Source: an uncultured Eubacteriales bacterium
Lineage (GTDB): Bacteria; Bacillota; Clostridia; Lachnospirales; Bianqueaceae
Assembly (NCBI GenBank): GCA_900315265.1
Contig: OMYN01000006.1
Span: 62,001 to 126,000 of the forward strand
DNA: 64,000 nucleotides
Direction: 5' to 3'
Part shown: piece after piece, positions 25,249 to 29,726 of the stretch
How positions within the stretch are numbered: the first letter of the stretch is position 1
How the letters are laid out: each line of letters starts with the position of its first letter
Notes under the pieces: generated by a model
Told to the model about the DNA's origin: nothing
Databases searched by the model: none
What the model saw: the letters and a program-made list of their open reading frames with translations, nothing else
Made by a program: the position numbers and the translations under genes

Positions 25249-25845
25249 TTAGCCATCGATCGAAATGACCCTGTCCGCACACTCGCGGACACGGCAGTTT
25301 GCGAAATAAAGTTCCTCCAACGGGATCCAGCGGGCGTTGAAATCAGCAAGGCCTTCTTTGCCGTTGCGGGCCAGGATCCTCTTCTGCTGGCGATTTTTAT
25401 CGATATCCACGAAAAACTTCCAATCATAGTAAGGTCTCAGATAGGTATTCAGGCTGTAGGACCCTTCCACCAGACAGACCGGTGTCGCTTTCATATGGAT
25501 GACCGGCAGGAACTCGTCTGTCGGAAAAACATAGCGGCGAAGGTCGAAATCCTGTCCCCTTTTCATGGGGATCAGGACTTCTTTGATAAAACGTTCGTGG
25601 TCGATGTTTTCACCGGGCGTTTTGTAGCGCTGCCCTGTCCTTTGAAAGGGCTGCAGGTAGAAATCGTCCATATGGACAAGGGTCCATCCGAAACGTTCTC
25701 CGACAAACTTGCCCAGCGTTGTTTTGCCCGATCCGCACCGTCCGTCGATCGCGATGATAACGGGGCCGTCGTGTTTTTCCTTTAATAAAAGGGCGGCATC
25801 AGCCTTGATGACTTCTGCCGCCTCCCGGATCGTCAGTGTTTGCAT
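25249..25845 (-). CDS. Uridine-kinase-like P-loop kinase
   Basis: The 198-residue P-loop NTPase has the Walker A loop DGRCGSGKTT (residues 34-43), a VHMDDFYLQP aspartate motif and an arginine-rich lid region (NRQQKRILARNG). This is the layout of the uridine kinase/phosphoribulokinase family, but the sequence is divergent and the phosphate acceptor is unknown. ATG at 25845 overlaps the stop codon of the ECF gene (TAATG), so the kinase is translationally coupled to a vitamin-type uptake component. A role in trapping the imported compound by phosphorylation is a reasonable inference. Confidence 0.75.
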   Translation of the reverse strand: MQTLTIREAAEVIKADAALLLKEKHDGPVIIAIDGRCGSGKTTLGKFVGERFGWTLVHMDDFYLQPFQRTGQRYKTPGENIDHERFIKEVLIPMKRGQDFDLRRYVFPTDEFLPVIHMKATPVCLVEGSYSLNTYLRPYYDWKFFVDIDKNRQQKRILARNGKEGLADFNARWIPLEELYFANCRVRECADRVISIDG

Positions 25846-26384
25846 TATCGTTTGAAAGGTACCGTTTTCGTTTTGTCAAGAACCACCATGACAGTTGGGA
25901 TCAGAACCAGATGAAGGATGATTCCCGGCCACGCGTTGATGAAGGCACCTGCCATAAACATTTTCATGGTAAAGCCGCTTCCCCCGAAGCCTAAAAGAAA
26001 GCCCATAGCCAGTCCGTAGACGGCTCGGCCCGCCAGCATGGCAATGATCAGCGATAGAACGACTGCCCATACCCCCTGATGGCGGATGTGATGATAGATC
26101 AGACCGATGACAGCTCCGTAGGTCGCGCATTCAAACATCATCTCGATAGCGACCGGATACAGGACAGGAATGCCGAACAAGGCAGACCTCAGGATCGGAC
26201 AGATCAATCCGACAAGAAGTCCGTACTGCCAGCCGCAGACCAGACCGCACAGATAAACAGCGATATGCATAGGAGACAGCATCTTTCCGATAGTCGGTAT
26301 CTGACCTGTCAGGAAAGGCAGCACCAATCCTAAAGCCAGGAATAAAGCAGCCAGCACCAGGTCCTTCACGTGTTTATGATCCAT
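25845..26384 (-). CDS. ECF transporter substrate-binding (S) component
   Basis: The 179-residue integral membrane protein has five to six hydrophobic helices. The first carries the small-residue-rich LVLAALFLALGLVLP pattern that in ECF S components contacts the shared EcfT subunit, and MLSPMHIAVYLCGLVCGWQYG follows. It would bind a vitamin or similar micronutrient and work with a shared energising module encoded elsewhere. ATG at 26384 follows GAAGGGGTG; an in-frame alternative start 6 codons upstream is less well placed. First gene of a five-gene operon. A folded leader RNA precedes it. The substrate is not evident. Confidence 0.85.
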   Translation of the reverse strand: MDHKHVKDLVLAALFLALGLVLPFLTGQIPTIGKMLSPMHIAVYLCGLVCGWQYGLLVGLICPILRSALFGIPVLYPVAIEMMFECATYGAVIGLIYHHIRHQGVWAVVLSLIIAMLAGRAVYGLAMGFLLGFGGSGFTMKMFMAGAFINAWPGIILHLVLIPTVMVVLDKTKTVPFKR

Positions 26385-26399
26385 AAATTCACCCCTTCT

Positions 26400-26477
26400 C
26401 AAACAGTACTGCTTCTGCAGTGTTCAAGAGACGGCTTCTGCCGTCAGGGATCCTTCATAAATCCTCCTGACTGTTTG
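26400..26477 (-). promoter_or_regulatory. Folded leader RNA of the ECF operon with tandem C-AGAA-G hairpins
   Basis: On the minus strand CAAACAGT (26470-26477) pairs perfectly with ACTGTTTG (26400-26407), closing a domain. Inside are two perfect hairpins with identical AGAA loops: GACGGC-AGAA-GCCGTC (26430-26445) and ACTGC-AGAA-GCAGT (26408-26421). An alternative stem, GTCAGG/CCTGAC, competes with both the closing stem and the first hairpin. The domain ends directly before the ECF ribosome site. A 5-codon open frame (MKDP-stop, 26444-26458) with AGGAGG lies inside. It does not match a riboswitch class I can recall. Confidence 0.55.
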
Positions 26478-26492
26478 TACCTTTATTAAATC

Positions 26493-26521
26493 ATTCTACT
26501 ACAAAGTTACTATACAAGCAA
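26493..26521 (-). promoter_or_regulatory. Promoter of the ECF-kinase-MBL-ispD-alaX operon
   Basis: TTGCTT (26516-26521), 17-nt spacer, TAGAAT (26493-26498) on the minus strand, giving a leader of about 100 nt. Confidence 0.6.
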
Positions 26522-29458: not shown

Positions 29459-29547
29459 CGGAGATGAAGAGATTTGAACTCTTGCGCCGCTATTAACGGC
29501 CTACTCCCTTTCCAGGGGAGCCCCTTCAGCCACTTGGGTACATCTCC
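29459..29547 (-). tRNA. tRNA-Ser (anticodon GGA)
   Basis: Class II cloverleaf: acceptor GGAGATG/CATCTCC, D arm CCCAAGTGGCTGAAGGGG, anticodon arm CTCCC-CTGGAAA-GGGAG (anticodon GGA), a long variable arm (GCCGTTAATAGCGGC) and T arm AAGAG-TTCAAAT-CTCTT. Discriminator G as expected for serine; CCA is not encoded. It decodes UCC/UCU. Confidence 0.96.
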
Positions 29548-29640: not shown

Positions 29641-29726
29641 CGGAAAGGGTGGGATTCGAACCCACGGCTCCTTACGGAGACACTGGATTTCGAGGCCAGC
29701 TCCTTAAGCCACTCGGACACCTCTCC
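29641..29726 (-). tRNA. tRNA-Ser (anticodon CGA)
   Basis: Class II tRNA: acceptor GGAGAGG/CCTTTCC with one G-U pair, D arm TCCGAGTGGCTTAAGGA, anticodon loop CTCGAAA (anticodon CGA, reads UCG), variable arm TGTCTCCGTAAGGAGCC, T arm GTGGGTTCGAATCCCAC, discriminator G, no encoded CCA. The pair closing the anticodon loop is a C-U mismatch. First gene of a two-tRNA transcript. Confidence 0.95.

Follow-up and report, generated by a model that had tools for sequence, protein, structure and literature searches.

A probable cis-acting attenuator RNA family before ECF S-component, nickel-uptake and lar genes in DUF3842-bearing bacteria

Genes and features of the locus

The window (the whole stretch of 64,000 nucleotides that was analysed) carries on its minus strand a gene for an ECF transporter S component of 179 aa (25845..26384; PF12822, Pfam E 9.6e-15), whose start codon is at 26384. 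The second gene (25249..25845, minus strand; PF00485, E 1.4e-7) comes next with a one-base overlap; its product is a P-loop kinase in the phosphoribulokinase/uridine kinase superfamily. As the S-component gene is on the minus strand, its leader RNA is the reverse complement of about 26480-26385, and all leader features given below are on that strand. Upstream, the leader borders on a cstA-like gene, which has a terminator of its own (stem 26560-26527). Directly upstream of the leader we read a possible weak promoter, TTGCTT-17-TAGAAT (26493..26521, minus strand), which is an inference only; a consensus promoter scan found no promoter and did not pick up this one either. A PDB sequence search with the S component as query gave no useful match.

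In many relatives the kinase is extended at its N terminus by a further domain of about 170 aa (a 347-aa ORF in L173; also L147, L155-L157, L172, L180 and L181), the first 81 residues of which had no Pfam match. Two ordinary tRNA genes were found by cmscan elsewhere in the window, at 29459-29547 and 29641-29726 on the minus strand.

Structure of the window leader

Three hairpins lie within a closing stem of 8 bp, whose 5′ strand CAAACAGU (26470..26477) pairs with the 3′ strand ACUGUUUG (26400..26407). The first of them, P1, is GGAUUU[AUGAA]GGAUCC (26448..26464) and corresponds to the hairpin RAUACY[AYGAA]GGURUY, which is the most conserved part of the RNA family described below. P2, GACGGC[AGAA]GCCGUC (26430..26445), has the conserved C-AGAA-G tip that was also found in orthologous leaders, and P3, ACUGC[AGAA]GCAGU (26408..26421), is the second AGAA hairpin of the leader, located exactly in the sequence and also through the alignment to model R3. 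An alternative stem can form between CUCUUGAACA (26430-26421) and UGUUUGAG (26405-26398). The ribosome-binding site of the S-component gene, AGAAGGGG (26392..26399), is unpaired while P1 is formed, and base-paired in the alternative fold.

The folding energy of the leader, on the transcribed strand, was better than that of shuffled sequences (z −3.0), and not one of 20,000 dinucleotide shuffles contained three hairpins with (N)NGAA loops within 150 nt. Pairs of such hairpins, at 19 and 23 nt, precede the start of the S-component gene. The minimum-energy fold of the leader cut at the ribosome site consists of the closing stem with P1, P2 and P3. When the ribosome site was included, the sequence AUCCC (26447..26451), which overlaps the 3′ strand of P1, paired with GGGGU of the ribosome site in the minimum free energy fold (−38.6 vs −32.8 kcal/mol); the start codon is hidden in this putative OFF state. 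A translational switch is thus predicted by the folding model for the window leader, without an experiment. The leader is diverged in that its P1 has two U-G pairs and that no terminator follows.

A sequence-only reading had noticed an 8-bp closing stem around two C-AGAA-G hairpins, a competing stem, and an end right at the ribosome site. Our analysis confirmed this observation as real, and all of these elements held with exact placement on the minus strand; the positions had been given for the plus strand, and the structures are actually on the transcribed minus strand. The third hairpin, P1, just 5′ of those described, had been overlooked.

Orthologous leaders

Homologs of the S component were found in 42 of 96 relatives and in 128 of 392 genomes of the order. 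Among 108 distinct leaders of these genes, 34 had hairpins with (N)NGAA loops, as against 1.9 in shuffles, and 10 had adjacent hairpin pairs with loops 17–26 nt apart, as against none. Loops of the NGAA type were present in 21 leaders (1.2 expected), and AGAA was the commonest tetraloop closed by C-G on a stem of >=5 (12 leaders vs 0.12 expected). The latter count is slightly inflated, for it includes three leaders (L017, L027 and L096) whose AGAA hairpin, 190–240 nt upstream, lies in the DUF3842 coding sequence, where by eye it corresponds to the MAEAI codons.

P1 and P2 are also present in species of the same genus (L013: GAUAUU[CUGAA]GGUAUC, then GCCGC[AGAA]GCGGC), and in some orthologous leaders the hairpins occur 2–4 times. 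The leader of the closest ortholog (L003, 71% identity) is without the element, and no other leader showed the closing stem. In S-component leaders from two other genera of the window's family (L009 and L012), a pair of hairpins is similarly placed but the loops differ (UCAA/CAA and CCA), which looks like a sister version with altered recognition letters.

Covariance-model searches and anatomy of the family

A covariance model of P1, P2 and the tail, built from 11 leaders including that of the window (model R2), was applied to 391 genomes of the class and gave 61 matches, 50 of which were examined. Thirty-two of the examined matches lay directly before an S-component gene (31 without the window, which is itself in R2), and 11 lay before nikM, larC, larE-linked, FecCD or NikB-type genes: nikM/cbiM in three cases, larC in one, a FecCD permease in one, a methyltransferase with a NikB-type permease in one, and a small membrane protein in five. 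The remaining seven had no sensible context. Matches with a sensible context span 22 families.

In L197, L223, L226, L228 and L237 the gene after the RNA encodes this small membrane protein (MACFLVPxAEA...HExVPWFPF; about 140 aa), and in L197 larE comes after it. The protein is likely to be lar-linked, and its role is unassigned.

The consensus of the blind hits is RAUACY[AYGAA]GGURUY followed, after a few nucleotides, by P2, whose tip is often AGAA or UGAA, then by a strand complementary to the 3′ strand of P1 and a U-run. Since one strand is common to both, P1 and the terminator are mutually exclusive. In many of the blind hits a strong terminator with P2 as its tip forms from the GG onward, and in many P1 and P2 form when only the first 42 nt are folded; a second terminator type is built on the 5′ strand of P1 (GUGGUAU-U6). 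GAAGG is strictly conserved across the loop and 3′ strand of P1, the tip of P2 is conserved, and the loops observed in the family are AUGAA, ACGAA, AAGAA, AGAA and UGAA. On 26 blind-found rows, P1 was 91.7% paired with three compensated pairs, and slid controls gave 31–44%. We claim covariation for P1 only, as P2 of the blind set could not be cleanly aligned by MAFFT; another alignment (A4) gave higher covariation, but its rows had been picked for hairpins and it is therefore partly circular.

Model R3 was built without the window as an honest test of its membership. The window leader was the top match of R3 in the 64 kb (16.1 bits, E 0.063), aligned via P2 and P3, and on this basis we regard it as a likely member of the family, diverged and of the translational kind. 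A model of the terminator type only (R1) gave the window leader no score; it is therefore not of the plain terminator type, which was rejected.

The structures could also be nothing more than the hairpins of an ordinary terminator or ribosome site, without conservation, or inverted repeats that arose by chance, and the weak family-model score of the window leader is in favour of this. Against it stand the enrichment over shuffles, the covariation, and the blind recovery before the same genes in all those families, and we consider such an explanation very unlikely. The family itself, with its stems and loops and its gene contexts, is shown by these comparisons, and that it is real, conserved and uncatalogued is very likely. 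Its anatomy makes it very likely to act as an attenuator as well, in the absence of expression or switching data.

Comparison with known RNAs

The covariance models of Rfam 15 gave nothing at or above the gathering cut-off for the window leader or for strong family members. Membership in the HMP-PP (thiS motif) riboswitch class was considered, as the two have a comparable small layout embedded in a terminator: both are compact leaders in which P1 excludes an intrinsic terminator and P2, with a conserved tip loop, is the terminator tip. However, thiS-motif RNAs are found exclusively with thiazole/thiamin genes (PMC6478431), and 0 of the 50 examined matches had such genes; the genes of the family are those for ECF-S/kinase, nickel transport and lar. 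The HMP-PP riboswitch also has a G-U wobble block at nt 24-27/46-49, a 5-nt P2 loop and an essential C35 (PMC6478431). Neither the G24-27/U46-49 block nor the 5-nt tip loop is present in the family, which instead has GAA loops, mostly NGAA tips closed by C-G, as well as tandem hairpin repeats and a translational version. The identity was ruled out on genes and conserved letters, and class membership is very unlikely.

Like an ANTAR antiterminator, the family has two small hairpins with a linker of a few nucleotides and conserved loops, and excludes a terminator. ANTAR targets (EutV, NasR) have hexanucleotide loops with A at position 1 and G at position 4 (PMC3369931), whereas the loops of the family are [N]NGAA closed by C-G, on longer stems. 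This identity was ruled out by the loop rule, as there are no hexanucleotide A1/G4 loops.

Guanidine-IV RNAs are about 95 nt long with a pseudoknot, and their genes are exporters, transaminase and GNAT (PMC7736828, PMC9788692). They and the Gd4v variant, whose ligand is unknown, resemble the family in that there are two hairpins, the 3′ one of which is a terminator (PMC7736828, PMC9788692). Unlike theirs, the family matches had no exporter, transaminase or GNAT gene, having ECF or lar genes instead, and both Guanidine-IV and Gd4v were ruled out on their different anatomy and genes.

Co-occurrence with DUF3842

DUF3842 was found in 41 of 41 genomes of the class that have the RNA in a sensible context, vs 94 of 350 others (p 1e-21), and of the 42 relatives with an S-component gene, 25 have DUF3842, 16 of them together with the RNA, whereas none of the 17 that lack DUF3842 has the RNA. 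The co-occurrence is shown by these counts; the p-values for it and for ECF/LarE below are uncorrected for phylogeny and ignore shared ancestry. The DUF3842 gene is <=3 kb from the RNA in 24 of the 41 genomes, and elsewhere or on another contig in 17. Sixteen of the 24 near genes are upstream on the same strand, and eight are on the opposite strand beyond the operon. DUF3842 is also present in many genomes without detected RNA. The protein is small, and its predicted fold (pLDDT 86) resembles nucleotide-binding domains of the Rossmann type; VIA-align found no specific functional match beyond Rossmann-type folds, and its conserved residues look as enzyme-like as regulator-like.

Because it is present in all 41 RNA-bearing genomes, DUF3842 is the leading candidate for the sensor, either as reader of the RNA or else as a core protein of the same pathway; RNA binding and an effector role are unproven. 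As a protein attenuator, DUF3842 would bind the tandem GAA-loop hairpins in response to a pyridine-type nucleotide and would set termination or translation, by analogy with PyrR in pyr operons. PyrR is the RNA-binding attenuation protein of these operons. If DUF3842 is the reader, the two would be alike in that a nucleotide-sensing protein acts on a conserved leader hairpin; they differ in that no relationship of DUF3842 to PyrR is known, and its RNA binding is inferred. The strict co-occurrence, the nearness to the RNA at varying places and the nucleotide-binding fold support this explanation. Against it, DUF3842 has no recognised RNA-binding motif and may instead serve the same pathway as an enzyme or carrier. 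We give this explanation about an equal chance of being right or wrong.

Links with nickel and the nickel-pincer nucleotide

The nickel-pincer nucleotide is made from NaAD by LarB, LarE and LarC (PMC7583248). In a same-genus operon (L168-L170), the RNA is followed by genes for ECF-S, nikM, nikQ, nikO and larC. It lies before larC and an ECF-S gene in another genome (G079), and before FecB/FecC-type genes, larE and larB in a third (G053; LarB and LarE were confirmed by NCBIfam). The prediction that the RNA would be found between DUF3842 and larE in genomes without the ECF gene held (L238, 35.5 bits; L239, 29.2 bits), and the search at DUF3842 genes of such genomes also gave an RNA near larC (L241, 18.6 bits). 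These gene contexts incline us to link the family to nickel-pincer or nickel metabolism, on a modest balance of probability.

Among the 96 relatives, the ECF gene was present in 11 of 11 LarC-bearing genomes without LarE vs 10 of 39 with LarE (p 9e-6); of those with LarA, 10 of 11 without LarE had it vs 6 of 17 with LarE. The window genome has LarC, and LarA was not detected in it. Because the ECF gene is in all LarC-bearing relatives that lack LarE, the S component and kinase may well salvage a nickel-pincer precursor. The simplest reading is that they supply the product of LarE (with LarB), a pincer nucleoside; the transported compound is inferred, and this could go either way. No LarA, LarC or LarE was over the cut-off in six genomes (G044, G065, G071, G075, G081 and G090) despite RNA, ECF gene and DUF3842, so the pincer link is not universal.

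At three loci (L146, L152 and L158), a gene whose product by eye resembles exported 5′-nucleotidases comes after the ECF gene or kinase, with MoxR-like and DUF58-like genes behind it. An extracellular nucleotidase beside a nucleoside importer would possibly fit nucleotide salvage, with annotation by eye only.

Proposed mechanism and the reader of the RNA

Taken as a whole, the observations are likely best explained by a family of cis-acting attenuator RNAs for nickel-pincer, nickel and ECF genes in DUF3842-bearing bacteria. In this explanation the family would control lar (nickel-pincer-nucleotide), nickel-uptake and ECF-S/kinase genes in the DUF3842-bearing members of the class. Expression would be on when P1 is formed. 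When P1 is open, its 3′ strand would pair downstream, in most members to give an intrinsic terminator with P2 as its tip, and in the window leader with the ribosome site so that the start codon is hidden. The GAA-loop hairpins (P1, P2, often repeated) would be the recognition sites, and the state of the nickel-pincer cofactor or nickel the signal. Where the S component and kinase lie downstream, they may take up a pincer nucleoside which the cell is unable to synthesise, and then rephosphorylate it; for this step we see no better than a balanced case. Switching and its direction, signal, effector and transported compound are all inferred, as there are no binding, expression or switching data.

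As to the reader of the signal, the alternative to DUF3842 on the hairpins is a riboswitch, in which the P1-P2 RNA would directly bind the nickel-pincer nucleotide, a precursor or Ni2+, and the ligand would choose between P1 and the terminator or ribosome-site hairpin, by analogy with the HMP-PP riboswitch. It is supported by the strictly conserved GAAGG and the conserved tip of P2, by the terminator-embedded layout resembling that riboswitch, and by the controlled genes, which form a coherent small-molecule pathway. However, the 2–4 hairpin copies in some leaders suit a protein site better than a single aptamer, and the RNA co-occurs perfectly with a protein family whose gene is often located elsewhere. 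In the absence of binding data, we place the riboswitch slightly behind, as the less favoured possibility.

The sequence-only reading had proposed a possible structured regulatory RNA, of no class recognised by eye, before the ECF gene, in the place of a vitamin riboswitch. Its regulatory part is supported by the covarying stems and the AGAA-type loops kept in orthologous leaders, and by the blind covariance-model search, which recovers the RNA before the same ECF gene in many families; the absence of a known class also held, with no Rfam match for the leader. The riboswitch part is left undecided: small-molecule binding is not shown, and a protein, of which DUF3842 is the best candidate, may read the RNA instead. 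The pathway linked with it is suggestive of nickel and the nickel-pincer nucleotide, and not of one of the classical vitamins.

Our search of the open-access literature (supplements and closed-access papers were outside its scope) found no report of this RNA in connection with larC, nickel-pincer, DUF3842 or ECF, and no regulatory RNA for nickel-pincer cofactor status was found in the literature searched. The family is an uncatalogued cis-regulatory RNA with strong comparative support and a concrete pathway, and it opens two questions to testing: by what means the status of the nickel-pincer cofactor is signalled in bacteria, and where the cofactor comes from in bacteria that have LarC or LarA without LarE. 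It also provides a first functional lead for DUF3842 and for the ECF S component of the window type. A bolder reading remains possible, though less likely than not, namely that of a new widespread RNA class that reports the status of the nickel-pincer nucleotide, is read by DUF3842 as a new RNA-binding sensor, and controls an unrecognised ECF/nucleoside-kinase salvage of the cofactor in gut and rumen anaerobes lacking LarE.

In one further genome (G106; L136/L164), the RNA has hem/siroheme genes on one side and, on the other, a FecBCD operon that ends in an FmdE-like gene, a locus that possibly suggests a tie to nickel or cobalt tetrapyrroles.
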